DNA of 64,000 nucleotides from Cohnella thermotolerans DSM 17683 (GTDB lineage Bacteria; Bacillota; Bacilli; Paenibacillales; Paenibacillaceae): positions 1-64,000 of the forward strand of contig NZ_AUCP01000037.1 in the NCBI RefSeq assembly GCF_000429825.1. Direction: 5' to 3'. The translations under genes and the position numbers were made by a program. The notes below the pieces were generated by a model. That model had not been told where the DNA came from, searched no databases, and worked only from the letters and a program-made list of their open reading frames with translations. Positions 7,198 through 34,097 of this stretch are shown in pieces. Position 1 is the stretch's first letter; each line of letters starts with the position of its first letter.

Positions 7198-8250
7198 CTA
7201 CTTCTGTCGATTCTTGTCGTTCGAACCGGCCGGAGCGCATGACGACCGCTCGACGAGCGTTGCCATGAAAACTTCCCTTCCCGCTTCCTCTTCTCCCCGC
7301 TTTTCCAGTCTCGCAATCAATCGGTCCGCCACCTGCACCGCCATTTCCACCCTCGGCACCTTCATCGTCGTAAGCGGAGGATGCGTATACTGGGAGATTA
7401 GCAGATCGTCGAAGCCGACGACGGATACCGCTTCGGGAACGGGAATCCGGTTCCGGGCCAACGCCTTGAGCGCGCCGTAAGCCATCAGGTCATTGCTGCA
7501 GAACAAAGCTTCCGGCAGCCGGCCCATGCCAAGCCAATGCTCCACCGCACGTTCGCCGTCCTCCTCCGTGAACCGGCCGTAGTAGACGGCATCCGCCCCG
7601 AGCGGCAAGCCGTGCTTGCGCAGCGCATCCGCGAAGCCGCGATACCGCTCTCTGGCCGTATCGTTGTCCATATCGCCGGTGACGATGGCAAGGCGCTTAT
7701 GGCCCAGCCCTATCAAATAACGGGCGGCCTCCCCGGCGCTTCGGTAATTGTCCAGGTGCGGAACGGGCACGTCCGCGGGCGGATTGCGGAAGTAGCCTTC
7801 GTCGAACACCCCGACTTCATAGCCGGCCTCCCGCATCCGGGCGACGACCTCCCGCAAGTCCGACCAGCTGACGATAATACCGCCGTCGATGCTCTTTTGC
7901 CGGTACATGCTGAACAACGGCTCGGGGTCGGCAATATCCAGCAACGTCACCAGCGTATTGTAGCCGTGCGTCGCGCATCGGCTAATGAGGGTGCCGATCA
8001 CCGCTCCGAAAAAAAGATCGTCCGTATGCAGCGTATATTTGGAGGCGTCCTGCACGATAAACAAGCCGATCGTATGCGATTTGCGGGCCGACAGCCTGCG
8101 GGCGGCCGCATTCGGCTCGTAGCGGTGCTCCTCCATGATGCGCAGCACCTTCTCGCGCGTCTCGGGCTTGACTTGGCTGGAGTTGTTCAGCACGCGTTGG
8201 ACCGTCTTCCTGGAGACGCCGGCCAGTCTGGCGATATCGAAGCTATCCAT
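7198..8250 (-). CDS. LacI-family transcriptional regulator
   Basis: A 350-residue sugar-responsive DNA-binding protein. The N-terminal LacI headpiece is at residues 1-50 (FDIARLAGVSRKTVQRVLNN), followed by a periplasmic-binding-protein-like sensor domain from about 60 to 335. I start it at the second ATG (8250) because GGACGGG lies 9 bases before it, while the first ATG (8259) touches that ribosome site. It sits between the GH64 gene and the sugar ABC importer, all on one strand, and probably controls one or both. Effector unknown. Confidence 0.88.
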   Translation of the reverse strand: MDSFDIARLAGVSRKTVQRVLNNSSQVKPETREKVLRIMEEHRYEPNAAARRLSARKSHTIGLFIVQDASKYTLHTDDLFFGAVIGTLISRCATHGYNTLVTLLDIADPEPLFSMYRQKSIDGGIIVSWSDLREVVARMREAGYEVGVFDEGYFRNPPADVPVPHLDNYRSAGEAARYLIGLGHKRLAIVTGDMDNDTARERYRGFADALRKHGLPLGADAVYYGRFTEEDGERAVEHWLGMGRLPEALFCSNDLMAYGALKALARNRIPVPEAVSVVGFDDLLISQYTHPPLTTMKVPRVEMAVQVADRLIARLEKRGEEEAGREVFMATLVERSSCAPAGSNDKNRQK

Positions 8251-18014: not shown

Positions 18015-18785
18015 TCAATCCGCGACCTCGACCGTCACGCCCGAGTCCGCGCAAGCTTGCAGCATCGCCTCGTCCGGCCGCTCGTCGGTCACGATTCGCC
18101 GCACGCCCGCAAGCGGGGCGAAAGAGACGAGCACTTTGGCTCCGAATTTGGTACGGTCCGCCACGATGGCCGTTTCGGCGCTTTGGCGAATGGCCAGCTG
18201 CTTGATTTCCGCTTCATATAAATTGGAGTTGCTGAAGCCGTGCTCCACGCTGACCCCGGTCGCTCCAAGAAAAGCGCGGTCGAACGCCATCGCCGACAGC
18301 CCTTGAACCGCGAGGGGGCCGACGAGGGAATGGGTCGTCTCCAGCAGCGTCCCGCCGGTCATGATCGTCGGAATTTGCCTCGCGGTAAGCTCCGCCGCCA
18401 CATTCAAGGCGTTGGTGACGATCGTCACCTGCATTCCCACGGGCAAATGCCGCGCAATTTGCAGTGTCGTCGTTCCTCCGTCGAGGAAGACCGATTCCCC
18501 CGGCCGGATGAGCGAGGCGGCCTTGCGGCCGATTCGTGCCTTCTCTTCGGTGTGCAGCCCGGAACGTTCCTTCAGCGCCACGTCTTGACCGACGAAGATG
18601 GCGCCGCCGAACGTCCGCTTGATCGAGCCCGTCTCCTCCAGCTTCTCCAGATCGCGGCGGATCGTCATCTCCGTGACGCCGAACGCCTCGCGGAGGTCGG
18701 CGATGCGGACCTCGCCTTCCCGGGAGATGCGCTCCAGCATTTGCCGCTGTCTGTCGTTCAGATTGGATTGGGCTGCGTATTTCAT
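18015..18785 (-). CDS. DeoR/GlpR-family transcriptional regulator
   Basis: A 256-residue repressor-type protein. The N-terminal DeoR helix-turn-helix lies at about residues 8-60 (IADLREAFGVTEMTIRRDL), and the C-terminal DeoR sensor domain, which binds sugar phosphates, spans 75-235 (VFLDGGTTT is its phosphate-binding segment). Start ATG at 18785 after GGGAGGCC. It lies 108 bases after the isomerase gene of the sugar operon, same strand, and is the likely regulator of that operon, sensing one of its phosphorylated intermediates. Confidence 0.88.
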   Translation of the reverse strand: MKYAAQSNLNDRQRQMLERISREGEVRIADLREAFGVTEMTIRRDLEKLEETGSIKRTFGGAIFVGQDVALKERSGLHTEEKARIGRKAASLIRPGESVFLDGGTTTLQIARHLPVGMQVTIVTNALNVAAELTARQIPTIMTGGTLLETTHSLVGPLAVQGLSAMAFDRAFLGATGVSVEHGFSNSNLYEAEIKQLAIRQSAETAIVADRTKFGAKVLVSFAPLAGVRRIVTDERPDEAMLQACADSGVTVEVAD

Positions 18786-18893
18786 ATCGTTGCGGCCTCC
18801 CGGCTTCTCGTGTTCGATGCGTCTACTATTATCGCTCGGTTCGCCCGCACGTTCAACCGCTCGCATGCGAACGGCGTACGAGCGATCCGGGCA

Positions 18894-20683
<1,790 letters not shown>

Positions 20684-20684
20684 C

Positions 20685-21845
20685 TTAGCTCCCCCAATCT
20701 ACGGCCGCCGTTCCTCCCGTTCGATGGGATTCGAGCGCCGCGGTAAATATCCGATGGCTCCCCGCCGCTTCCTCGGGCAGCGCACAAACGAACGGCTGGG
20801 ACATGCCGTCCCTCCCATGCGCAATCTCGTCGCAGAACGCCGCCCACATCTGCAGAATCGAATCGGAGAACCCGAATTCGAAGATCGCTCCCGTAAGGGT
20901 GCCGTAAGCGGAACGATAAGGCGCATCCTCGACGTGCCACGCTTGCCGGCCCCCGGGCGAGTATGGGAGGGAGGCGACCTGCTTCGGGTTTTTCGTCGAA
21001 AATTCCGCGGAGAACTCGGTTCCCTGGATGCGGATAAACCACGTATTCGCGTGGCCCGGGGCGATCCGCTTCGTGGACAGAATCATCGGGAACCGCCGAT
21101 CGGCCGCGTTCACGTCGCAAGCGAGAATGGCGTTGTCCCACGTCTCGCACGGCGCCGTTCCGCCCCGGCCGTCCGGCCGCTCTTCGACGATCTTGGACAA
21201 CAGCGCCCGCACGCTGGCCGGCTTCCAGCCGAACCGAAGCGGCAGATGAAGCACGTGCAGCCCGAGATCGCCCATGCAGCCGTACTCCCCGTTCGTCGCG
21301 ACGCGGCGCTTCCAATTGATCGGCTTCGTCGGGTCGAGATCGCTGGAATGCCAGAAGCCGGCTTCGACTTCGATAATCCGCCCGAATCGGCCTTCGTTCA
21401 CCCATTCCACGATCCGCTGTGCGCCCGGGAAAAACGGAAATTCGGAGGAGCAGCGCACGACGACTCCCGGATTCGCCCGGATCGCCGCCGATATCGCTTC
21501 GTTCGCGCTTCGGTCGATGCCGAACGGCTTCTCCCCCAGCAGATGCTTGCCTGCGCTCACGATATCGATGTAGATTTGCTCGTGCAGATGGTGCGGCACC
21601 GCGCAGTAGACGGCTTCGACGGCAGGATCGGCCAGCAAATCCCGATAATCCGAGTAAACGTTCGCCACGCTCGGAACGTTGTCGGCAAACCATTGCGCCG
21701 CCGCCGGATTGGCGTCGCACACCGCCGCGATGCGGGGCTCGAAATCCGCGTCGGTCAGATGGCACCACCGGGCCGCCGCGCTCGCGAACTCCTTGCCCAT
21801 CAGACCGCAACCGATGACGCCGAAGCCGATAATCCGTTTAGCCAT
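20685..21845 (-). CDS. Gfo/Idh/MocA-family NAD(P)-dependent dehydrogenase
   Basis: A 386-residue oxidoreductase. The N-terminal Rossmann motif GVIGCGLMG is at residues 9-17 and the family's EKPFG with catalytic Lys106 at 105-109; a C-terminal beta-sheet substrate domain follows. Such enzymes oxidise or epimerise hydroxyls of sugars and inositols. Start ATG at 21845 with GGGAGGGCGG upstream, overlapping the aldolase stop by 8 bases, so the two are tightly coupled. It may oxidise the free sugar before isomerisation, or reduce an unusual intermediate. Confidence 0.85.
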   Translation of the reverse strand: MAKRIIGFGVIGCGLMGKEFASAAARWCHLTDADFEPRIAAVCDANPAAAQWFADNVPSVANVYSDYRDLLADPAVEAVYCAVPHHLHEQIYIDIVSAGKHLLGEKPFGIDRSANEAISAAIRANPGVVVRCSSEFPFFPGAQRIVEWVNEGRFGRIIEVEAGFWHSSDLDPTKPINWKRRVATNGEYGCMGDLGLHVLHLPLRFGWKPASVRALLSKIVEERPDGRGGTAPCETWDNAILACDVNAADRRFPMILSTKRIAPGHANTWFIRIQGTEFSAEFSTKNPKQVASLPYSPGGRQAWHVEDAPYRSAYGTLTGAIFEFGFSDSILQMWAAFCDEIAHGRDGMSQPFVCALPEEAAGSHRIFTAALESHRTGGTAAVDWGS

Positions 21846-22689
21846 GCGTCCGCCCTCCCCGAACGATCGCCAGCGCCTGCTCGGCGGAAGCGTCTTCATG
21901 AACGATCGCCATCAAAGCCGACGTCATGGCGGCCGGATCGGCATGCTGTACGACGTTGCGGCCGTAGACGATGCCCGAAGCGCCCTGCTTCATCAAATTC
22001 GCCGTCCGGTTCATCATTTCCTCGTCGCTGGCGCGCCCGCCGCCCCGCACGAGGACGGGAATGCCCGAGGCGACCTCGATGACGCGGTGGTACTCGCTTA
22101 CGTCGTCCGTCGGATCCGCCTTGATCACATCGGCGCCCAGCTCCACCCCTTGCCGGACGAGCGCCATAATTTTATGCAAATCCCCGTCCGTCATATAACC
22201 TCCTTTCACTTCGTTCGGCAGCATGACGAGCGGCTCGACCATGAGGGGCATGCCGTATTTCTCGCACTCGCTCTTCAGCAGCGAGATGTTCCGTACGCAT
22301 TGGCGGTGCAGATCGGGCTGGCCCGGCAGCAGCAGCAAATTGACGCATACGGCGACGGCGTCCAGCCGAACGGCGTGCTCGATCGCGCGGTCGACCAGCT
22401 CGCTGAACAGCACCTTCGGCAGCTCGCTGCCGTACACGTTCGCGGCGTCCGTCCGCAGCACGAGGCCGGGCTTGCGCTTGCCCGGAATGTCTTGCAGCAG
22501 GCGGGCTTGCCCCATGCTGAGCTGAATGCAGTCCGGCCCCGCCTGAGCGACCGTCTCAATGGCGCTGCGCATGTTCTCGATGCCGGACAAAAAGGCAAAC
22601 TCGTTGAAAAAACCGTGATCGATCGCGACGTCGAAGCATTTGCCGTTCTCGCCGAACATCCGGTTCAAACGTGCTTTTGCGGAAGACAT
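21838..22689 (-). CDS. Class I aldolase, DhnA/LsrF/LacD-like
   Basis: A 283-residue TIM-barrel Schiff-base aldolase. The active-site lysine is Lys190 in ADVIKADPTDD; FDVAIDHGFF near residues 19-28 is the N-terminal barrel motif, and VLVRGGG / GIVYGRNVVQH form the phosphate-binding loops. Related enzymes cleave fructose-1,6-bisphosphate, tagatose bisphosphate or AI-2 derivatives. Start ATG at 22689 after AAAGGGG. It is the first gene of the operon, directly behind an AT-rich promoter with repeated AACAT elements. Substrate unknown. Confidence 0.83.
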   Translation of the reverse strand: MSSAKARLNRMFGENGKCFDVAIDHGFFNEFAFLSGIENMRSAIETVAQAGPDCIQLSMGQARLLQDIPGKRKPGLVLRTDAANVYGSELPKVLFSELVDRAIEHAVRLDAVAVCVNLLLLPGQPDLHRQCVRNISLLKSECEKYGMPLMVEPLVMLPNEVKGGYMTDGDLHKIMALVRQGVELGADVIKADPTDDVSEYHRVIEVASGIPVLVRGGGRASDEEMMNRTANLMKQGASGIVYGRNVVQHADPAAMTSALMAIVHEDASAEQALAIVRGGRTHG

Positions 22690-22707
22690 GGAAGATGAAC
22701 CCCTTTC

Positions 22708-22751
22708 GTTAATAACATAAATATGTTCGTTTATAACATTATCACATAAAA
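22708..22751 (-). promoter_or_regulatory. AT-rich promoter/operator region of the sugar operon
   Basis: The segment contains two copies of ATAACAT (22712-22718 and 22732-22738) and the palindromic AACATAAATATGTT (22714-22727). DeoR-family repressors commonly bind such repeated elements; assignment to the local DeoR protein is inference. Confidence 0.4.
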
Positions 22752-22945
22752 AAAGAACATGGCAATCCATTTTTCCAGCGCCCCGCTCCAGGCGTGATTT
22801 TCGGCTATTGCCGGAGAATGCCGAGCCCGCTATACTTACAAATATAGGTCGCGAAGTACGCGCCGCTTCCGGATACAACCGTTCCTCTTCACGGAGAGCG
22901 TTGTACGGAGGCGGCTTTTCATTTTCTTAAGGAGGCGGGAGTCCG

Positions 22946-23593
22946 ATGGTGCGTTTCGATGAAAGTTTCGAGGAGTGGATGCAGAGCCGGCTTGAAGCCG
23001 AGAATAATCCCCGAAGACGCGAACGGCTTGAAAAGGGGCTTGGACACGGCACGTTGGAATTTCTTCGGACGGTTTGGTTTCCGGCTGTCGGCCATTTCGA
23101 GCATTTGTATCCCGAATGGGAGGTGCGCGATTTCTCCAACGGTTATCGCTATCTGGACCTTGCCTACATGCCGGGAGGCGCGAAAGGCGGGATTGAAATT
23201 CAAGGCTACGGCCCCCATGCCCGGGATTTGGATGTAAGACGTTTCAAAGACTTATGCCGGCGTCATTGCTTATTGGCGCTCGACGGTTGGGTATTCCTTC
23301 CGGTCGCTTACCCTTCCATCACCGACGAACCCGCGCAATGCCGCCAGCTCGTACTCTCGTTTATCGGCAAGTTTGTGGCTTCGGACGTCGACGCCTCCTT
23401 ATCCTGGCTGGAAGCGGAAACGGTTCGTTTCGCGCGAAGAGGGCTGCGGCCGTTTACGCCGTTGGAGCTTGCCGCGCATCTCAGGGTGAGCGATCGGCAC
23501 GCCAGGCGCATCTTGCATCGGCTCGTCGAGCGGCAAATGTTGGCCGTGGCCGGCGGCCGGGAGCGCCACCGGACGTACCAAATCCGGGCGTAG
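22946..23593 (+). CDS. Putative nuclease-fold (Vsr/DUF559-like) protein with C-terminal winged helix
   Basis: A 215-residue soluble protein. Residues about 68-125 read like the core of the Vsr/DUF559 endonuclease-like fold: YLDLAYMP with Asp, then GGIEIQGYGPH with Glu and Gln, then DLDVRRFKDLCRRHCLLALDGW and a hydrophobic strand. The last 55 residues (FTPLELAAHLRVSDRHARRILHRLVERQML) form a winged helix-turn-helix. The combination suggests a DNA-binding regulator built on a nuclease scaffold, or an active nuclease; I cannot tell. Start ATG after AAGGAGG. Monocistronic and divergent from the sugar operon. Confidence 0.6.
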   Translation: MVRFDESFEEWMQSRLEAENNPRRRERLEKGLGHGTLEFLRTVWFPAVGHFEHLYPEWEVRDFSNGYRYLDLAYMPGGAKGGIEIQGYGPHARDLDVRRFKDLCRRHCLLALDGWVFLPVAYPSITDEPAQCRQLVLSFIGKFVASDVDASLSWLEAETVRFARRGLRPFTPLELAAHLRVSDRHARRILHRLVERQMLAVAGGRERHRTYQIRA

Positions 23594-24014: not shown

Positions 24015-24156
24015 GTGCAATATGCCAAAGTACCGGGGGTTGGAGACTCGATGCCGGATTTCCGCCGGAGAAAGCTTGTTTTTAACGCAATCTCAATGCC
24101 AGCAAGCCGAGATATTCCTTGAGCGCATCCTGCGGCCCTCTATGCCGCTGCGTCCA

Positions 24157-25560
24157 TCAACGAAACTCCGGCGGGATGCGGCGGGCGACTCCGGTCAATA
24201 TCGCCGCTTCAATAACCGACTGCCGCACCTTCTTCACCACTTGCTCGTTAAAAATGCTTGGAATAATATAGACTTCGTTCAGCTCCGACTCGGACACCAC
24301 AGAAGCGATCGCTCGGGCTGCGGCCAATTTCATCGGTTCGTTAATGCATCGAGCCCGGCAATCCAGCACCCCGCGGAAGATTCCGGGAAAAACGAGCACG
24401 TTATTAATCTGGTTGGGATAATCGCTTCTTCCGGTGCCCAGCACCCGAACATGAGGCAAAGCCTCCTCGGGATCGATCTCCGGCACGGGATTCGCCATGG
24501 CGAACACGATGCTGTCTGGCGCCATCGTCTGAATATCCCGGGCGTTCAAGAGACCTCCTCGCGATACGCCGATAAAAACATCCGCACCCGGCAGCAAATC
24601 CTTCAAAGTTCCCGGTGTGTCCTCCACCTGCGGTTGTTCCGCAAGCCAATTCCACATCGGGTGCTCGTACGTTTTCCCCCGAACGATAGCCCCCTCCCGG
24701 TCGACCGGAACCAGACGCTTCACTCCGGCGGCAAGAAGCATTTTGCAGATCGATACGCCGGCGGCGCCGATGCCGTTGACGACAATCCGAACTTGCCCGA
24801 TCCGTTTGCCTACAACTTTCAAAGCGTTCAACAAACCGGCCACGACGACTACGGCAGTTCCGTGCTGATCGTCGTGGAAGATGGGAATATCCAATTGTTC
24901 GCCAAGTTTCGCTTCGATCTCGAAGCAACGAGGCGAGCTGATATCCTCCAAATTGATTCCGCCAAAGATCGGACTGATCGTCTTAATGGTGCGAACGATC
25001 TCTTCGGTGTCTGTCGTATCCAAACAAATCGGGAAGGCGTCGACTCCGGCCAACTGTTTAAACAACATCGCTTTGCCTTCCATGACCGGCGCTGCGGCGA
25101 ACGGCCCGATATCCCCAAGGCCGAGAACCGCCGTCCCGTCGGTAATGATCGCGACGGTGTTGCGCTTGATCGTGAGCGAGAACGCCTTTTCCGGATTTTG
25201 GTGAATAGCCGTACATACCTTGGCGACTCCCGGGGTATAAACCTTCGACAGATCGTCCCGATTGCGAATCGGCATATTCGGGTTCACGTTGATTTTGCCC
25301 CCAAGATGAACAAGGAACGTCCGGTCCGACACGTTGATCAGTTTGATTCCCTGCTGCCCGTTCACCGCTTCGACTACCTTGGACTCGGCCGATTCCGCAA
25401 TATCTACCGTAATATCCCTTACAGACAAACCCTTGCTTGAACGGATCACGTCGATGGAGGTAATGTCCCCGCCGGCTTTGCCGATGATGGAAGCGACCTC
25501 GCCGAATGTAATCTGTTCGTGGTTTAATTCCACCCTTAGAACGATACTGGTTAATGCCAT
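24157..25560 (-). CDS. NAD(P)-dependent malic enzyme with N-terminal ACT domain
   Basis: A 467-residue enzyme that decarboxylates L-malate to pyruvate. An ACT regulatory domain covers residues 1-80 (IGKAGGDITSIDVI), the malic N domain follows with VYTPGVA and the substrate loop TDGTAVLGLGDIG, and the NAD-binding domain starts near 225 (NGIGAAGVSICKML). The ACT-malic arrangement resembles Bacillus MleA/YqkJ. I start at the ATG at 25560 with AAGGAGCAG; the open frame runs further to 25740 without support. It is the last gene of the eight-gene operon and would drain a C4 acid product into central metabolism. Confidence 0.9.
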   Translation of the reverse strand: MALTSIVLRVELNHEQITFGEVASIIGKAGGDITSIDVIRSSKGLSVRDITVDIAESAESKVVEAVNGQQGIKLINVSDRTFLVHLGGKINVNPNMPIRNRDDLSKVYTPGVAKVCTAIHQNPEKAFSLTIKRNTVAIITDGTAVLGLGDIGPFAAAPVMEGKAMLFKQLAGVDAFPICLDTTDTEEIVRTIKTISPIFGGINLEDISSPRCFEIEAKLGEQLDIPIFHDDQHGTAVVVVAGLLNALKVVGKRIGQVRIVVNGIGAAGVSICKMLLAAGVKRLVPVDREGAIVRGKTYEHPMWNWLAEQPQVEDTPGTLKDLLPGADVFIGVSRGGLLNARDIQTMAPDSIVFAMANPVPEIDPEEALPHVRVLGTGRSDYPNQINNVLVFPGIFRGVLDCRARCINEPMKLAAARAIASVVSESELNEVYIIPSIFNEQVVKKVRQSVIEAAILTGVARRIPPEFR

Positions 25561-25586
25561 GTCGCTGCTCCTTATCTTGTCGGCAT

Positions 25587-26339
25587 TTATAGCATAACAT
25601 CGCCTGAATTCGGCCCGAGCGTCTGGCCGGTGTATAAATTCCCGTCCGGTTCCGAAGCCAGCAGAACGGCCGTAGGAGCGACTTCTTCGGGATAACCGAA
25701 CCGCGGAATCGCGAGCTCCTTCTTCTTGCGTTCCTTCCAATCCGGATCGATGCCCGCGACCAATCTCGTCTCAATCGGACCGGGCGCGATGCAATTGGCC
25801 GTAATGCCGTATTGTCCAAGCTCCAAGGCGATGGATTTGGTGAATCCGATCACGCCCGCCTTGGCCGCTGCGTAGTGGCTTAATTGCAGGCCGCCCTTCT
25901 GCGCGATTTGGGACGCGATATTGATAATCCGCCCGCTTCGTTGACGGATCATATGCGGAACGGCCTGCCGGGTCATCAGGAAGACGGATTTCAAATCGAC
26001 TTCGATCATGCGGTCCCATACTTCGACCGTCATGTCTTGAATGAAGCTCTGGGTCAGTATCCCCGCGTTGTTGACCAAGATATCGAGGGAACCGAACCGG
26101 GACACGGTCTGCCGGACGAAGCTCTCGACGAACGCCGCATCGGTGACATCGCCTTCGACCGCGAATACTCGGCTTCCGGTTTGCTCCAGCTCCCGCACGA
26201 ACTCGTCGATCTGAGCTTTCGGCTGATTGAAATAATTGAGCGCCAGATCCGCCCCTTCTCTAGCGAAGGCCTCGGCAATCGCCTTGCCTATGCCTTCCCC
26301 CGCTCCCGTAACAATTGCCGTTTTGTTTTTCAGTCGCAT
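25587..26339 (-). CDS. SDR-family oxidoreductase (FabG-like)
   Basis: A 250-residue classical SDR. TGAGEGIG is at 11-18, NNAG at 90-93, and the catalytic Ser143, Tyr156 and Lys160 are in IASQ and YAAAK. It resembles 3-oxoacyl-ACP reductase-like dehydrogenases of sugar or hydroxy-acid catabolism. It lies 26 bases before the malic enzyme gene and 31 bases after the Zn-dehydrogenase gene, clearly in the same operon. The substrate cannot be deduced; the pathway context suggests a hydroxy acid or alcohol intermediate. Confidence 0.85.
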   Translation of the reverse strand: MRLKNKTAIVTGAGEGIGKAIAEAFAREGADLALNYFNQPKAQIDEFVRELEQTGSRVFAVEGDVTDAAFVESFVRQTVSRFGSLDILVNNAGILTQSFIQDMTVEVWDRMIEVDLKSVFLMTRQAVPHMIRQRSGRIINIASQIAQKGGLQLSHYAAAKAGVIGFTKSIALELGQYGITANCIAPGPIETRLVAGIDPDWKERKKKELAIPRFGYPEEVAPTAVLLASEPDGNLYTGQTLGPNSGDVML

Positions 26340-26370
26340 GTTCGATTCCTCGCTTTCAGCTCTGCGGCAA

Positions 26371-27465
26371 CTAGAAATGAATGACGACTTTGATCACTCC
26401 GTCTCTTTGCTGTTCGAACAGCTCATAGGCTTCCAATGCACGATCGATAGGGAACCTGTGCGTGATCATGCTGGTCAAGTCCAGCCGCTTGCTTCGCACC
26501 AGACGGATCAGCTGCAGCATCCGTTCCCGCCCGCCGGGACATAAAGTCGTGACGATGCGGTGATCGCCCATTCCGCCGGCGAACGTCTCTTCGGGAATGG
26601 TGACATGCCCCGAATAAATGCCCACGCTGGAGACCGTCCCTCCCCGGCGGATGACCTTCATGCAGTTCGCAAACGTGCTCTGCGACCCCAAGGCTTCGAT
26701 CGCGACATCCGCGCCTTGGCCTTCGGTGAGTCTCCTAATCTCTTCCGCCACATCGACAGAACGATAATCCAACGTCAGGTCGGCTCCCATCTTGCGGGCG
26801 ATCTCCAGACGCGCCGGATTGCCGTCCACGCCGATGATCGTACTGGCCCCCATGAGCCGGGCGCCGGCTATGGCACATAGACCGACAGGACCGCATGCCA
26901 TCACGACGACGACATCGCCGACTTGAATGCCGGCCTTCTCCGCAGCCGCGATTCCGGTCGAGCCGATGTCCGACACAAGCAGCACCTCATCATCGGTCAG
27001 CTCGTCGGGAACCTTGGTGAGGTTATATTGGGGAAAAGGCATTTTGAAATATTCGGCATGCGTTCCGTCTACGGTATTCCCGAGTCTCCAGCCGCCGGGA
27101 TGCCGATGGTCGCCTTCCGGGCCGATGCATTGCGAAGGCAGCCCCTTCTGGCAATAGTAGCAGATGCCGCACGGTGTGCAGGAGCCGCACATCACGCGAT
27201 CGCCGACGGAGAACCCTTGAATTCCTTCGCCGATCTCATGAATGATGCCCACATGCTCGTGCCCCAGCACCCTTCCTTCTTCTACCGGATGCTCCCCGTG
27301 CAGGATGTGAATGTCCGTGCCGCATATCGTCGTGGAAGTTGTCTTGATGACGACCTCGCCCGCACCCGCTCTCGGAATCGGCTTGTATTCCAACGCAGGC
27401 TTGCCCGTTCCGCGATAGACGACAGCCTTCATGAAGCCCTCCGGTGCCGGTTCCATTCTCGTCAT
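26371..27465 (-). CDS. Zinc-dependent alcohol dehydrogenase family protein
   Basis: A 364-residue medium-chain dehydrogenase. The catalytic-zinc residues are in TTICGTDIH and RVLGHEHVG, the structural-zinc cysteine cluster is CGSC-TPC-GIC-YYC with a further Cys, and the Rossmann motif GPVGLCAI follows. I begin at the ATG at 27465 because GAGGAGAG lies 6-11 bases before it; an ATG at 27489 overlaps the CobW gene. It fits the TDH/ADH IV-like group that oxidises secondary alcohols or hydroxy compounds. Mid-operon position; it may need the zinc supply suggested by the CobW neighbour. Confidence 0.87.
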   Translation of the reverse strand: MTRMEPAPEGFMKAVVYRGTGKPALEYKPIPRAGAGEVVIKTTSTTICGTDIHILHGEHPVEEGRVLGHEHVGIIHEIGEGIQGFSVGDRVMCGSCTPCGICYYCQKGLPSQCIGPEGDHRHPGGWRLGNTVDGTHAEYFKMPFPQYNLTKVPDELTDDEVLLVSDIGSTGIAAAEKAGIQVGDVVVVMACGPVGLCAIAGARLMGASTIIGVDGNPARLEIARKMGADLTLDYRSVDVAEEIRRLTEGQGADVAIEALGSQSTFANCMKVIRRGGTVSSVGIYSGHVTIPEETFAGGMGDHRIVTTLCPGGRERMLQLIRLVRSKRLDLTSMITHRFPIDRALEAYELFEQQRDGVIKVVIHF

Positions 27466-27481
27466 AGCATCTCTCTCCTCG

Positions 27482-28507
27482 TTAAGCATGGCGTATGATG
27501 TTAAGCGCCGTTAGACGGGCCTTGGCGTCCATCATGTGTTGAAAAGCCTCCAACGATTGCATCAGCTGTTCCGGGTCGATCGACTTCATGATGAACACGA
27601 CATGAGACCGAGGCTCGACTTGCTTCGGCCATGCAGGCAGATGTTCGGGCGGATGAATGATGTGCTGGACCCCGTTGAGCAGGACGGGTCCCCGCTCCCC
27701 GACATCCAGCAGCCCTTTCACGCGCATGACGTTCTCGCCGCACGAATGAAGCAGCAGACTGAGCCACATGCCGAAAGCGTTCCAATCGATCGGACGGTCG
27801 AACGTAACGGATAACGAATGGGCCGCTTCCCGCGAATGCGCGGATTCGGGACCGGGAACCGGCCGTTCCCGGTCCGCTGCGAGCGCGCCGGATGCGATCG
27901 GAACTTCTTGGGAGAAGAGGAGGTCCCAATCCGTCCGTCCATTGTCGGAGAAGACGATAGGGGCCGTCGGATTGAGACGCGCAAGCTCGCGCACCAGCTC
28001 CTCTCTCGCTTCGTCGGTGACCATGTCGGTCTTCGTCACGACGAGCTTATCCGCTGCCGTAATCTGCTTCTTCGTCTCCGGATGCCGGTCCAGATGCAGT
28101 CCGGCATTGACGGCATCGACCGTAGCGAGCACGTGCTCGATCCGATAATGATGCTGCAAGACCGGATCGGTCATCACCGTAAACAAGATCGGCGCAGGGT
28201 CGGCCAACCCGCTCGTCTCAATGACGACCCGTTCCAAGTCGGGAAGCTCCCCTCTCTGGCTCCGGTCCAACAAATCCTTCAGCTCGCGGATCAAATCTTC
28301 CCGCACTGAACAGCACAGGCAGCCCCCGCTGAGAAGACGGGTGTGCTCGTCGATCCGCCGGAGCAAATGGTGGTCCAGGCCGACCTCGCCGAATTCATTG
28401 ACCAGTACGGCCGTCCTTCCGCCCGGTTCCTCCTTCAGCAAGTGCGTCAGCAGCGTCGTTTTACCGCTTCCCAAATATCCGGTTACGATGGTCACGGCCC
28501 GTTTCAT
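27482..28507 (-). CDS. CobW/G3E-family metallochaperone GTPase
   Basis: A 341-residue GTPase. The P-loop GYLGSGKTT is at 10-18, the metal-binding CxCC motif (GGCLCC, Cys63/65/66) follows, the GTP-base motif KTD is near 159, and a CobW_C domain is at the C terminus ([10 protein letters not shown]). G3E proteins insert or deliver Zn, Co or Fe to client enzymes. Its ATG overlaps the stop of the upstream CxxC gene by 4 bases, and the flanking operon encodes at least two likely metal enzymes (deacetylase-fold hydrolase and Zn-dehydrogenase), which are probable clients. Confidence 0.88.
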
Positions 28508-28827
28508 TCGCGTCTACCCCGGTTCAAATAGTCAAGGAGGCCGGAATCCAGAGGATTTAGCGGCCGCCCTGCGAGCTTCTCGGCTTTCTCCCACAAGTCG
28601 CCCAAATCATGAACGATCTCCGAACGTCCCTTTTTATCGCGGACGACAAATTTGACGCCGTTCCAATCGTCCACCTTCAGTCCGTAATATCCGAGCATTT
28701 GATTCAGCAGCCGGATACGGCGGAGACGCTCCCTTTGTCTCGTTCTCGAGGCGAAGGCCGATTCGGGCGGTTGCTTGCGATCGGTCCAATGAATTCGAAG
28801 AATCGATTCTCCGCACAGCACGCACAT
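28504..28827 (-). CDS. Small CxxC protein translationally coupled to CobW
   Basis: A 107-residue protein that I do not recognise as a named family. It begins MCVLCGE, a CxxC pair that could bind metal, then HWTD, an Arg-rich helix ([12 protein letters not shown]) and a region ending in ERVAG-like ...[20 protein letters not shown] preceded by AAAGGGGCGAG. Its 4-base overlap with the CobW gene makes a metal-handling partner role plausible; this is inference from context only. Confidence 0.65.
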
Positions 28828-28851
28828 AGTCTCGCCCCTTTGGCCGAATGC

Positions 28852-29736
28852 TTACGCTCTCGGAAATCTCGCTTTATAATCCTTGGCGATCTCGTCGAAC
28901 GTCACCCAACGCACCCCTTCATGGCCGCTGATATATTCGATTAACCGCTCGTGCATCAGGAGAACTTGCGGTCTTCCGCTTACGTCGGGATGAATCGTCA
29001 TCGTAAATACGGCGTAATCATGCTCGCGATACACCCAGTCGAACTGGTCCTTCCACATCTGCTCAATGTCTCGCGGATTGACGAAGCCGTGGCTGTTGGG
29101 CGACTTCTTGATGAACATCATCGGCGGCAAATCGTCCAGATACCAGTTGGCCGGAATTTCAATGAGATCGGTCTCCCGGCCTCGAACGAGCGGCTTCATC
29201 CACGATTCGGCCGGCTGCTCGTAGTCGATATTGGTCCAGCTGTCCCCGACCCGGACGTAGTAAGGCGTAAAATCGTTGTGCATCAGACTGTGATCGTACA
29301 CAATCCCGTGCTTGAGCAGCAATTCGTTCGTAATATTCGAGAATTCCCACCAGGGCGCTACATAACCGGTCGGCCGTCTCCCCGATACCTTCTCAATGAG
29401 GTCGATGCATTTTAGCAAAATGGTTTCTTCCTGCTGCGGGGTCAACGCGATCGGATTCTCATGCGAATAGCCGTGAAGGCCGATCTCGTGTCCGGCGTCT
29501 ACGATCATGCGCGTCTGCTCCGGGAAAGTCTCGATCGAGTGCCCGGGAACAAACCAGGTCGTTTTCAACCGATATTTGTCGAACAATTTCAGCAGACGAG
29601 GCGTTCCGACCTCCCCCGCGAACAAGCCGCGGGAAATATCGTCGGGCGAATCTTCGCCGCCATAAGAACCGAGCCAGCCTGCAACAGCGTCAACGTCTAC
29701 TCCGTAAGCTACCAAGATTTCTTTTTTGTTGGCCAT
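28852..29736 (-). CDS. Polysaccharide-deacetylase-fold hydrolase, PuuE/imidase-like
   Basis: A 294-residue cytoplasmic enzyme, no signal peptide. It shows the NodB-barrel metal set: Asp near residue 13-15 (GVDVDAV), His88 and His92 in [11 protein letters not shown], plus PWWEFS and a late [10 protein letters not shown]. Within this fold it resembles PuuE-type allantoinases and the zinc imidases that open cyclic imides, more than secreted sugar deacetylases. Paired in this operon with a nitrilase-type amidase, an imidase role (cyclic imide to half-amide) fits well. ATG with AAGGAGAG. Alternatives: hydantoin- or allantoin-type ring opening. Confidence 0.75.
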
Positions 29737-29764
29737 CTTTATCGCTCTCCTTGTCGATTGCGGA

Positions 29765-31111
29765 TTATTGGGATATTTCTTCCAATTCTTGCTTCGGGGA
29801 AATAGATTTGGCGCCGGCCATTAAAATAGCCGACAGCGCCAGCGGGAGGACGCCGGAGACGAATATGGCGGGAATCGTTCCCAAGCTGTCGATGGTGGCC
29901 GAGAAAATAATCGAACTGAAAATCGCTCCGACAGGCCCGAGCGCATTAATGAACGCGGCGCCCGTCCCGCGGATTCGGGTCGGGAACGATTCTCCCATGT
30001 AGCTGTACAAGGCCGCGTAAGAACCGATCAAGAAAAACAGACCGACGCTGTAGGAGATCAAGACCGGCCAATAGCCTTCCGCGACGAACAGCATGAAGCT
30101 GAAGCCGATGGCGGACATCATCCAGGCAAACATGATGGTTCCCCTTCTGCCGAATTTGTCGCCGAGATATCCGTGCGTAATATAGCCGATGTAAGCCAAG
30201 CCGTTGGAGAAAATGAGCATGAACAACGAGTTGTTAAACGAGATGTCCTTCCCATCCGTCAGTACCGTCGTAGAAAGAACGGAGAAAATCTGAATGGCGA
30301 ACCAGTTGAGCATGTGGGCCACGCCCAGGAAAATCGTATGTTTGCGAATGTCCGAGGCAAAAAGCTGCGTAATCGAGGTTTTCGTCATCTTCTCGCTGTC
30401 GATGCCGATTCGCTGTCCCAGCGCCTTGGCTTCCGTCAGCTTGCCGGCTTTAATCAGCTTGCGAACCTCGCGCATTTGTTCATATTTCGGCGATTCCTTC
30501 AGCTTGATCCGCAGCAGCATAATCAGCACCGCCGGAATGGTGCCGACCAGGAATACGCCCCGCCAGCCGATGTGCGGAAGCAACTGGGCCGTTATAAAAG
30601 AGGCGAGGAGCACGCCGATCGGCCATCCGCCTTGAATGAAGCTGTACATAAAGCCCCTCTTCTTGGCTCCGGACAATTCGGATAAATACGTCGTGTTTAC
30701 CGCCTGTTCGGAGAATCCCAAACCCGACATAGCCCGCACGACAATCAGATACAGAGGGCCCATCGTAAAGGCGGTCAATCCCGAGCTGATCGCGGCCCCG
30801 GCCGTCGTAAGCATAAGAGCGTTGCGCCGTCCAAAATAATCGGTGATCGGGCCTACCATCAAAGAGACGATCAGCGTGGACACGGATACCCAGGTGGCAA
30901 TTTGAGCGCTTTGGGCCGTCGTCCAGTGAAATTCGTCCGACATGACCGGAAGAAGCGTTCCGAACAGAATGAAATCGTAAGTCGAAAATACCCAGGCGAA
31001 GAAGGCGATAACGGAGGCGTAGATCAGACTGCCTCTGGAGATGGCAGCGGCCTCTTTGGTTACGGAAGTCTTCAACGCGACTTCATCGACTTTGAGCACA
31101 TTGGATTCCAT
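29765..31111 (-). CDS. MFS transporter (metabolite:H+ symporter type)
   Basis: A 448-residue permease with 12 predicted membrane helices. The conserved MFS loop after helix 2 (DYFGRRNAL) and the equivalent after helix 8 (DKFGRRGTI) are present, as in the sugar-porter/AAHS-like symporters that import aromatic or carboxylic acids. I take the ATG at 31111, since the extra N-terminal residues to 31150 overlap the upstream hydrolase. It probably imports the operon's substrate. Confidence 0.85.
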
Positions 31112-31146
31112 ACAAACACCGCACTTTCCAGTTTGATGGTTGAGGA

Positions 31147-31950
31147 TCAATCGTATAAGGTTCTCATTAATGGCCGGTTCAGGTCTCGCAAATAGGGAAT
31201 TCTGGTTCGCTGAACGGCTATAAATTCCAGATCCAGCTCGGCAACGACGACTTCGTCCGGCTGTTTAGCCTCGGCCAGAACATGGCCGGCAGGATCGACG
31301 ATGCGGCTTCTGCCGCCGAACTCCGTCTCCCCCCGTTCGATGCCCGATCGGTTGGAGGCAATCAAATAGACCCCGTTCTCCAAAGCTCTCGCACGGCTGG
31401 CCAAATCCCAAGCGTAATCCCGCTCCTTCCCGAAGGCCGACGGAATCGCAATAATATCCGCTCCTTGCAAGGTCAAGCTTCTCGCTCCCTCGGGGAAGCC
31501 GATCTCGTAACAAATTTGCAAGCCCAAGCGCGCAAAGCCAAGATCGAATACGGGGAAGCTCGAACCTTTGGCAAATCGGATATTTTCCTTATCCCATAGA
31601 TGAGTCTTCCGGTAAGAACCGATCCATCCGTCCGGACCGACCAAGAAAGCCGTATCGTAAATAATTCCGCTGACGTTGCACTTCTCCAACAGGGAGCCTG
31701 CGATGTGAATGCGGTCGCGTCGGCAGATCGTTTCCAGGAGGGCAATCGTCTCTCCCGGAATGCTCTCGGCGAGCTCCCGGTCCCGTTCTTCGACGCGGTA
31801 CCCCGTATTGAACAATTCCGGCAGAACAATCAGCTCCGCTCCCCGGTCAACCGCTTCTTGCACGAGCCGGATCGCCTTGGCCATATTCGCATCCTTGTCG
31901 CCCAGCACACAATCCATCTGAATAGCGGCCGCTTTGAAAATATGTCTCAT
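31147..31950 (-). CDS. Carbon-nitrogen hydrolase (nitrilase superfamily)
   Basis: A 267-residue amidase-type hydrolase with the complete Glu-Lys-Cys triad: Glu45 (VLPELFNTG), Lys115 (YRKTHLW) and Cys148 (LQICYE). Nitrilase-superfamily enzymes of this size hydrolyse small amides, omega-amides or N-carbamoyl compounds; a half-amidase role (succinamate, maleamate or glutaramate to diacid) would match the imidase-like neighbour. I start at the ATG at 31950, preceded by AAAGGACAGGG. First gene of the operon. Confidence 0.85.
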   Translation of the reverse strand: MRHIFKAAAIQMDCVLGDKDANMAKAIRLVQEAVDRGAELIVLPELFNTGYRVEERDRELAESIPGETIALLETICRRDRIHIAGSLLEKCNVSGIIYDTAFLVGPDGWIGSYRKTHLWDKENIRFAKGSSFPVFDLGFARLGLQICYEIGFPEGARSLTLQGADIIAIPSAFGKERDYAWDLASRARALENGVYLIASNRSGIERGETEFGGRSRIVDPAGHVLAEAKQPDEVVVAELDLEFIAVQRTRIPYLRDLNRPLMRTLYD

Positions 31951-32047
31951 ACCCTGTCCTTTCCATTTCATCCGAAGTCGCTTTTTTACAACTGCCAGAC
32001 CCCTCTATCCCGAACTTTCAGCCTCCTATTAATGTAAATTTTTGTTA

Positions 32048-32125: not shown

Positions 32126-32143
32126 TTATGCATTTCTGCATAA
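32126..32143. promoter_or_regulatory. Candidate operator TTATGCA-N4-TGCATAA upstream of catabolic operon
   Basis: Two 7-base arms separated by TTTC. A near-copy, CTATGCA-TTCG-TGCATAG, stands upstream of the regulator gene at 34080-34097, so both are probably bound by that regulator. I searched this 300-base region for a -24/-12 promoter (GG-N10-GC) and saw none. Confidence 0.6.
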
Positions 32144-32250: not shown

Positions 32251-33991
32251 TCACCCCGAATCGGCCTTCCGCCGGTTCATGGCCTGAAGCTTTCGGCTGA
32301 TCGTCGATTGATTGACGCCCAATACTTCCGCCATTTTTGTCGTTGACCCGTATTTTTGAAGCGCCATCTCCAGAAGCTCGCTCTCTACCGTTTCTGCCGC
32401 TTCCTTCAAGGGGACAATGTCGTTCACTTGAATTTTGGCCGGCGTTCCGCTTGGCTCCGCCATATGCTTGGGAAGATCTTGCGCAGTAATGACAGGATGG
32501 TTGGTCGTTAACAGCACGTTCTCGATCGTATTCCGCAATTCGCGCACATTGCCTGGCCAATGGTAATGCTGGAACTTCTCCATAATCGAGGAAGAAAACT
32601 TCTTGTTCAGGCCGTATTTTTCCGTGAGCCGATGGATGAAATGCAGGGATAAAGCCAGAATATCTTCTTTTCTCTCGCGCAGAGGAGGGATGGCGATCGG
32701 AATCACATTCAAGCGATAGTACAGGTCCGAACGAAACGCGCCGGAAGCGATCTCTTCTTCCAGATTCCGGTTCGTCGAGGCAATAATTCTTACATCCACC
32801 TTCAATCGCGTCGTACTCCCGATCCGGACAACCTCCATATCTTCCAGCACTTTCAGCAGTTTCGTCTGCAAAGTCGGCGGCAAGCTGCAAATCTCGTCCA
32901 AATACAAGGTGCCCTCATGCGCCATTTCAAACAGCCCGATTCTTTTGCCGCTGTCCCCGTCGCCGGAAATATCCTCTTCGCTCCCGAACAACTCGGCCTC
33001 CAGCAGCTTCTCGGGGATGGAAGCGCAGTTGAAGGTGACAAAAGGTTTTTTGCTGCGGGGACCCCACTTGTGAATGAAAGAAGCAAGAACATCCTTCCCG
33101 ACTCCCGATTCTCCCGTCAACAATACGGTAGCGTCCACTTGCGCTACTTTTTGCGCGATGCCGACGACCTCTCTCATTTTAACGCTGCGGTAAATAATGT
33201 TCGTCTGTTCTTCGTCTTTTTGTCTTAACTCCATGAGCTCTTTTTTGTATCCTTCGGTCATGCTGCGCAATTCATCCAGCTCCAATTGAAGCTTGCTGAC
33301 CTCCGTAATATCCCGAGAAGCGTTGACGACCCGGACAATCCTTCCCTGCTCGTCTTTGATCGGAGTTCCGACGACCATCAGCCTGCGCCCTGTTTTGGTC
33401 GTTTGAATCATGGAAACCTTCTCCTTCTTCTCCAGCACAAGACGGGTGACGGAAGGTTTAAATAGGCCGAGCCGCTCCAAATCATTGACGCTTTTGCCTA
33501 CCAATTCGCTCTCTTTATGCCCCCAGAGCTTCTCGCAGGCCGAACTTACTCTCAGCGTAATCCCGTTGCCGTCCGAGACATAAATCACATCGTAAGAAAT
33601 GTCGAAGATGGCTTGCAAATCGGCTCATATCCCGATAAGAGTCAAGCGCTTGCGTCAATTGTTCCAATTCGGTCGTTTTCTGAAACAACAAAACAAAACC
33701 CGCTTGCTTCCCTTTCCCGTAGAAGGGATGCTTCTTCAACACGTAATTTTCGTTCCCGCATTTGAAATTGACAAAGCTCTGCCCCTCGTTGCCGGGACTG
33801 GAATCCGGAGGGCATACGCTAGGAAATTTATTGCTCCATAAGCGGCGTATGACTTCCTCTTTGCGGCATTGCAGAACTTCGCATGCATATTGGTTGATTT
33901 CAATAATGCATTCGAATGGATCCAGAATGACAATGCCCATCGGGATTTCGTCCAATATCCCCTTCTGTTCGAGGAAATGAAGCGTTTTCAA
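32251..33991 (-). pseudogene. PAS-PAS-AAA+-HTH regulator lacking GAFTGA, frameshifted
   Basis: Two overlapping frames together encode about 580 residues. The first part (33991 to about 33630) has a PAS domain (ILDPFECIIEINQYACEVL). The second (about 33625 to 32251) has another PAS domain (YVSDGNGITLRVSSACEKLWG), an AAA+ core with Walker A GESGVGKD and Walker B TLYLDEI, and a Fis/TyrR-like HTH (KMAEVLGVNQSTISRKLQ). One base too many near 33625 separates them: SYRDM should continue into ADLQAIFDISYDV. The sigma-54-contacting GAFTGA loop is replaced by SEEDISGDGDSGKR, so it should act like TyrR rather than as a sigma-54 activator. The first frame probably starts at a TTG with AAGGAG. Functional status depends on whether the shift is real. 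Confidence 0.75.
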
Positions 33992-34079
33992 TTTCTTCTC
34001 TCCTTGCACACAAACGATAAATTCGTACTATTCAGTATAGGGCAGGCCCGGAACAACCTCAACGCCAAATTTTCAAAGC

Positions 34080-34097
34080 CTATGCATTCGTGCATAG
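34080..34097. promoter_or_regulatory. Candidate operator CTATGCA-N4-TGCATAG upstream of the regulator
   Basis: Same arms and spacing as the site at 32126-32143. Located about 90 bases before the regulator start, suggesting autoregulation. Confidence 0.55.

Follow-up and report, generated by a model that had tools for sequence, protein, structure and literature searches.

Within a 64-kb stretch of the Cohnella thermotolerans DSM 17683 genome (hereafter, the window), an eight-gene operon on the minus strand (24157-31971) is likely, as judged from sequence comparisons, to encode the opening of cyclic imide rings followed by deamidation of the products. We propose that the operon serves the inducible use of cyclic imides, or of hydroxylated imides, as a source of nitrogen and probably of carbon. 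In this scheme a major facilitator superfamily (MFS) protein would bring in the compound or a precursor, a hydrolase of the HpPgdA type would convert the imide to a half-amide, and a nitrilase-type enzyme would convert the half-amide to a dicarboxylate and ammonia. The short-chain and alcohol dehydrogenases may work on a hydroxyl group, either forming the imide by oxidation of a hydroxylactam, like HxnW ahead of HxnM in Aspergillus, or oxidising a hydroxy acid after ring opening. A CobW GTPase and a small protein beginning with MCxLC probably load or guard the metal of the ring opener, and a PAS-containing sigma-54 activator would turn the operon on through TATGCA-N4-TGCATA sites.

All eight open reading frames (ORFs) are open and follow one another from the nitrilase to the malic enzyme with intergenic gaps of 35, 28, 24, -4, -8, 31 and 26 bases, which bears out the tight minus-strand run described in the original prediction. 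The nitrilase ORF extends to 31971, and its second methionine gives a start at 31950 that is possibly the true one. Pfam matches (CN_hydrolase, MFS_1/Sugar_tr, Polysacc_deac_1, cobW plus CobW_C, ADH_N/ADH_zinc_N, adh_short and malic/Malic_M) agree with the domain labels given earlier to seven of the proteins, and the 107-residue product has no match. Because the core genes recur together in distant organisms, their grouping goes beyond chance.

Table 1. Coordinates of the operon genes, the upstream activator gene and its flanking palindromes in the window
Feature	Positions	Strand	Basis or remark
Sigma-54 activator, N-terminal piece (PAS)	33515..34009	-	PAS_8 at its cut-off; frame differs from main piece
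Sigma-54 activator, main piece (PAS, AAA+ sigma-54 interaction, Fis-type helix-turn-helix)	32251..33618	-	Pfam
Palindrome TATGCA-N4-TGCATA, probable activator site	34081..34096		Upstream of regulator gene
Palindrome TATGCA-N4-TGCATA, probable activator site	32127..32142		Between regulator and operon; also beside regulator in relatives
Nitrilase-superfamily hydrolase, proposed half-amidase	31147..31971	-	CN_hydrolase E 1.4e-59; triad E52 K122 C154
MFS transporter, proposed importer	29765..31111	-	Pfam and NCBIfam matches
HpPgdA-type hydrolase (P0003), proposed cyclic imide hydrolase	28852..29736	-	3qbu, 561.5 bits
107-aa protein, MCxLC and HW near start, proposed CobW metal-binding partner	28504..28827	-	Unnamed family
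COG0523/CobW GTPase, imidase-linked clade	27482..28507	-	Pfam, neighbourhood, tree
Zinc-type medium-chain alcohol dehydrogenase	26371..27489	-	ADH_N/ADH_zinc_N
Short-chain dehydrogenase	25587..26339	-	adh_short
Malic enzyme, second genomic copy, operon-linked here	24157..25560	-	malic/Malic_M

The proposed ring-opening enzyme

The proposed ring opener, P0003, has Helicobacter pylori HP0310 (HpPgdA, 3qbu) as its best solved relative, the match covering residues 4-293, and this strong full-length similarity places it in the HpPgdA-like family (cd10938). The next solved relative, 3rxz, deposited as a polysaccharide deacetylase, reached 120.6 bits, followed at about 60 bits by chains of the allantoinase type and by 3s6o ('polysaccharide deacetylase family protein'); the remaining chains gave 43 bits or less. 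Four active-site residues, Asp14, Asp16, His88 and His92, are kept in 84 of 84 homologues, and His249 in 83; they correspond, with an offset of +2, to HP0310 Asp12, Asp14, His86, His90 and His247. The single exception at His249 is a row, L011, ended by an in-frame stop before that residue. Across the 84 homologues, 125 of 294 alignment columns show at most one exception, and the organism names on the records span at least five phyla. This conservation across phyla argues for one common function of the HpPgdA-type homologues. The L011 row (478-867) represents one of two imidase copies in a Bacillota genome (G183); the stop breaks it after 129 residues, and the other copy is open.

Characterized members of the family suggest what that function may be. 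HxnM of Aspergillus nidulans belongs to cd10938 (CE4_HpPgdA_like) and is more than 60% identical (64.2% in one paper) to the Pseudomonas putida YZ-26 imidase AAY98498 (PMC8478523, PMC9304392), a cyclic imide hydrolase described as a single enzyme (Shi 2007, as cited in the same two papers). Because of this identity the P. putida enzyme is very likely a member of the same family, and the tie to both enzymes, together with the complete HpPgdA-type active site, supports the imidase assignment that had been made for P0003. HxnM is assigned the conversion of 3-hydroxypiperidine-2,6-dione to a half-amide, which is then hydrolysed by the amidase HxnN (PMC8478523, PMC9304392). The HxnW-HxnM-HxnN pathway of nicotinate use thus resembles the operon in that a cd10938 ring opener is followed by an amide hydrolase, with a dehydrogenase making the imide beforehand. 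It differs in being fungal, in the amidase-signature type of HxnN and in its substrate, 3-hydroxypiperidine-2,6-dione, and the portions of PMC9304392 and PMC8478523 available name no CobW or CxxC gene.

Some observations weigh against this assignment. The distance between P0003 and AAY98498 is gauged through HxnM only, and HP0310 has been credited with other activities: the purified protein showed acetylxylan esterase activity, with a role in lysozyme resistance also cited (PMC3688963), and others reported that it deacetylates crude peptidoglycan. These reports, and the deacetylase names of the two nearest solved relatives, would suit a cell-wall role in which P0003, in keeping with the name of HP0310, removes acetyl groups from peptidoglycan or amino sugars while its neighbours recycle wall fragments. 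We consider such a role very unlikely. As described in PMC3084791, HP0310 had no activity on N-acetylglucosamine (GlcNAc), chitotriose, acetyl-polyamines, N-acetyl dipeptides or allantoin, lacks both a signal peptide and an accessible polysaccharide groove, and has a small, obstructed active site; it probably acts on a small molecule, its specific substrate being left open there. By eye, the N-terminus of P0003 shows no hydrophobic, signal-like stretch. Its scores with the NCBIfam peptidoglycan-GlcNAc deacetylase models are at most 41.2 bits against cut-offs of 400 or 800, and the genes around it encode amide hydrolases and transporters. The original prediction had held that clustering with sugar or peptidoglycan deacetylases would speak against an imidase. 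In name such relatives were found (3qbu and 3rxz), but HP0310 itself was inactive on the substrates tested and is structurally nearest to allantoinases (PMC3084791). The NCBIfam PuuE allantoinase model gave P0003 74.5 bits against a cut-off of 424.6; with scores so far under the cut-offs, NCBIfam assignment as either an allantoinase or a peptidoglycan deacetylase was rejected.

Amide hydrolases beside the proposed ring opener

An enzyme that produces half-amides would be expected to have an amide hydrolase as its partner. We scored amide hydrolases (E < 1e-20) in 88 imidase loci, comprising 3 found through the CxxC protein in a Bacillota sample, the best 80 of at least 573 relatives and 5 plasmid regions; the window itself is not among the 88, and the sample is skewed to Pseudomonas, so that the counts do not represent independent events. 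In 70 of the 88 loci an amide hydrolase lies within 6 kb of the imidase gene. It is of the nitrilase type in 14, the amidase-signature type in 42 and the asparaginase type in 14, and no locus carries two types together. The nearest amide hydrolase was within 1.5 kb of the imidase gene in 58 loci and at 5-8 kb in none. Unrelated enzymes from three families stand in for one another next to the imidase gene, as expected if a half-amide step is conserved, and the deamidation step originally proposed gains support. The 18 loci without an amide hydrolase within 6 kb count against this; in 8 of them the sequence runs for less than 4 kb to one or both sides, and the other 10 are true exceptions at the threshold used. 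Two Nonomuraea loci have a 31% identical nitrilase-like match that falls below the threshold and were therefore scored under asparaginase.

In the window this step would fall to the nitrilase-superfamily protein. Its Glu-Lys-Cys triad, aligned with NIT2 (2w1v), is intact, as had been noted from the sequence, and none of the 11 NCBIfam models that it matched reached the cut-off. We also considered a ureide version of the pathway, in which the ring opener cleaves hydantoins or dihydropyrimidines, the nitrilase is an N-carbamoyl-amino-acid hydrolase and the pathway as a whole breaks down hydantoin-like compounds. Among the solved structures nearer to the ring opener are allantoinase-type chains, the solved nitrilase relatives include a chain also named beta-ureidopropionase, and HP0309 is listed as an N-carbamoyl-D-amino acid amidohydrolase (PMC3866246). 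NCS1 permeases, moreover, occur at 12 of the 88 loci, where the best NCBIfam names, below cut-off, are NCS1 symporter and allantoin permease. Set against these points, the amidase-signature or asparaginase-type proteins that fill the step elsewhere are a better fit to carboxamides, and HP0310 is the same allantoin-inactive enzyme described above; the ureide version is rather unlikely. Ring opening of a cyclic imide followed by deamidation is the reading we prefer.

All 15 annotated genes under the imidase matches (among 20 of 81 plasmid records) are called 'polysaccharide deacetylase', a label that misleads if the ring openers on these plasmids are imidases. On a plasmid of Rhizobium sp. ACO-34A the imidase gene adjoins an asparaginase gene, with no GTPase or small CxxC-type gene annotated alongside; a 4-hydroxyphenylacetate 3-monooxygenase and a pyridoxal 4-dehydrogenase are annotated in the region, which may point to another source of the imide.

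The CobW GTPase and the small MCxLC protein

Neighbouring genes were surveyed by tblastn within 6 kb of the imidase in 83 loci (the 88 loci minus the 5 plasmid regions). A CobW relative was found in 65 and a relative of the 107-residue MCxLC protein (the CxxC protein) in 62; without the three loci that had been found through the CxxC protein itself, the counts are 62 and 59 of 80. Both occur in 61 loci, and there the two genes are adjacent, with L091 as the one exception. These counts, and the co-occurrence in genome samples given below, support the conserved pair that the original prediction expected beside the imidase. The operon CobW has cobW and CobW_C domains and the GCxCC motif, as GCLCC, and belongs to COG0523. 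Imidase-linked proteins make up 33 of the 66 sequences in the CobW tree, and a branch with support 100/99 separates them from 18 paralogues taken from 12 searched genomes; those tested thus form one clade. A client can be proposed for one branch of COG0523. The Nha3/P47K nitrile hydratase activators (PMC2770081) form another such branch, alike in having a GTPase tied to one metalloenzyme operon and in the GCxCC motif; their client enzyme is different, and in the operon the CobW is coupled to a separate MCxLC protein.

The CxxC protein represents a family for which neither Pfam nor NCBIfam has a model, neither giving a match at E <= 0.001. Met1, Cys2, Leu4, Cys5, Trp14 and Gly67 are invariant in 32 aligned members and His13 is nearly so; MCxxC stands at the start of 62 of 62 relatives, with HW no more than 20 residues later in 57. 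The structural model has a mean predicted local distance difference test score of 85.4, the first 20 residues, which include the CxxC, averaging 51 and 61, and a fold search with it gave no PDB match at E <= 0.001. Because the CxxC-bearing N-terminus is poorly modelled, we claim neither a fold nor a metal site.

The distribution of the CxxC protein follows that of the imidase. In a Bacillota sample it was found in 3 of 299 genomes, all of which also carry an imidase that is 76% identical or more; in a fourth genome the imidase relative reaches no more than 42% identity, and the CxxC protein is missing. In Gammaproteobacteria an imidase (59-80% identity) was found in 3 of 229 genomes, and the same 3 have the CxxC protein, at most 20 first-look candidates per genome being scored, so that single misses are possible. 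The two samples together thus give the CxxC protein in 6 of 528 genomes, each with an imidase. Two of the six, the window genome and G300, on which the second sample was centred, had been known already, which leaves 2 + 2 genomes as fresh evidence.

A set of 18 imidase genomes, chosen for missing an adjacent CxxC protein, provides contrary cases. Fourteen, including Nonomuraea, Streptomyces and Binatia, gave no CxxC match anywhere; 3 had a strong match elsewhere or beyond the fetched stretch, and 1 a weak one (four large genomes were scored at 150 candidates, and some entries are metagenome bins). The CobW/CxxC pair is therefore not always needed. A search for residues that divide imidases with and without the CxxC protein yielded one weak column, position 45. 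CobW may supply metal to the imidase, although these cases run contrary to it; that CobW and the CxxC protein are dedicated metal loaders of this enzyme is a tentative suggestion.

The same arrangement may exist in H. pylori. HP0309 is the amidohydrolase mentioned above, HP0311 is listed as hypothetical and HP0312 as an ATP-binding protein (PMC3866246), HP0312 being a COG0523 member (PMC2770081). In eight loci from Helicobacter, Helicobacteraceae and Campylobacter (L034, L054, L060, L062, L063, L064, L066, L084) the order is C-N hydrolase, HpPgdA-type protein, CxxC protein and CobW, and by annotation and by this order HP0309-HP0312 appear to be the same four-gene core; in the genus group reached through L062 the gene was present in 2 of 14 genomes at E <= 1e-80. 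The H. pylori set differs in that HP0310 is called a peptidoglycan deacetylase, and the operon adds the MFS transporter, two dehydrogenases, the malic enzyme and the sigma-54 activator. It is conceivable, if doubtful, that CobW and the MCxLC protein form a pair devoted to maturing HpPgdA-type imidases by insertion of the working metal, which is perhaps not zinc, that HP0310 made alone in E. coli was inactive because it was mis-metallated and was given no imide, and that the H. pylori 'peptidoglycan deacetylase' is truly an imide hydrolase feeding HP0309. This offers a testable reading for a protein with a solved structure, a specific substrate left open in PMC3084791 and a credited role in persistence of a human pathogen.

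The enzymes of the operon are of known kinds, and a conserved module with the CobW/CxxC pair was not found described. The open-access papers listed in searches, covered by title and the start of the abstract, gave no account of a system with the CobW/CxxC pair, swappable amide hydrolases and the palindrome, and two supplements (additional file 3 of PMC2770081 and Figure S1 of PMC3084791) may show the CobW neighbourhood. The earlier statement that no operon of this composition has been described is thus uncontradicted in that literature as far as the whole operon goes, but its four-gene core appears to match HP0309-HP0312, whose genes are already in print.

Two further observations concern these genes. 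In the imidase locus of Aneurinibacillus terranovensis (L013) the CobW match is limited to about 190 residues (7524-8090) and no CxxC protein adjoins it, a CxxC relative lying elsewhere in the genome. In Gammaproteobacteria a conserved protein of about 398 residues follows CobW (13310-14506 in L046, and relatives); it matches no Pfam or NCBIfam model, and the gene at its place is annotated as an extracellular solute-binding protein in four plasmid records.

Transport, redox and regulatory genes

An MFS relative (tblastn E <= 1e-4; the family is large) was found no more than 6 kb from the imidase in 44 of the 83 loci and, counting the NCS1 permeases noted above and the ABC transporters in 3 of 5 plasmid imidase regions, the importer of the original prediction is supported as MFS, NCS1 or ABC depending on lineage. 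A short-chain dehydrogenase relative was found at the same threshold and distance in 46 of the 83 loci, an alcohol dehydrogenase relative in 2 (L013 and L029) and a malic enzyme relative in none. Another malic enzyme encoded in the genome is 79% identical to that of the operon, and relatives were present in 57 of 59 family genomes sampled. The place of malic enzyme in the operon is therefore local and its use for a C4 acid a guess; a conserved pathway step through malic enzyme was rejected, and the proposed drainage of a C4 acid by this route is not supported. The ACT domain ascribed to it rests on reading by eye, as Pfam gave no ACT match at E <= 0.001.

The enzyme pair might instead clear toxic or spontaneously formed imides, with the dehydrogenases incidental. 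Detoxification or damage repair of this kind would accord with the rare and sporadic spread of the imidase, which at E <= 1e-100 turned up in 3 of 394 genomes of the family. It would also accord with the Helicobacter and Campylobacter loci, where the four core genes stand with no relative of the window's MFS protein or dehydrogenases around them, although an NCS1 permease is close by in L034. The importer genes and the activator beside many loci suggest nutrient use, and we regard detoxification as unlikely. An activator gene and a repeated palindrome are both present, in keeping with an operon under sigma-54 activator control.

The probable regulator, a sigma-54 activator upstream of the operon (32251-34009), was absent from the original prediction. 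In the window it is split into two overlapping frames, a break that may be real or a sequencing error and that counts against the proposed control; in L013, L015, L016, L017, L029 and L051 it is one ORF of 466-691 residues. The main piece is 52-60% identical to the one-ORF regulators beside the imidase in L015, L016, L017, L029 and L051 and 44% to that in L013, and the N-terminal piece aligns with the N-terminal region of the regulator in L017 at 28% identity over 111 residues. Because the one-ORF regulator of L016 is similarly long (466 residues), the main piece (455 residues) might function alone.

Exact TATGCA-N4-TGCATA occurs twice in the whole 5.05 Mb assembly, both copies flanking the activator gene. 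With up to one mismatch there are 13 copies in 7 Bacillales imidase loci, none of them in L013, against a chance mean of 0.13 and a maximum of 1 in 30 simulations; among the others of the 83 loci, L040 and L064 have one copy each. Allowing two mismatches still gave no copy in the Bacillota loci L010, L011, L012 and L019. The palindromes are probably activator sites, although those close to the regulator gene's end may in some cases belong to a terminator hairpin instead. In L015 a strong sigma-54 promoter (42/44) lies downstream of a palindrome pair. Before the nitrilase gene of the window no -24/-12 sigma-54 site was found (best score 28/44), a further point against activator control, and a promoter there was rejected as unconvincing.

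Past the end of the malic enzyme gene, on the minus strand at 24087-24101, is a good sigma-54-type site that departs from the pattern at one position; a terminator-like hairpin (23873-23853) follows some 215-235 bases later, with no clear gene seen between. The two possibly mark a small RNA, or possibly reflect chance. The sigma-54 pattern at up to three mismatches is no commoner than expected (446 matches against a shuffle mean of 489). Sigma-70 and terminator scans were likewise at shuffle level (6 against 6.6 and 15 against 14.6). Beside the operon, on the opposite strand, is a 215-residue ORF (22946-23593) with no Pfam match at E <= 1e-6. Further on, a separate minus-strand sugar-metabolism run (18015-22878) encodes a DeoR regulator, a D-lyxose-isomerase-like protein, a PfkB kinase, a GFO/IDH oxidoreductase and a DeoC/LacD aldolase.

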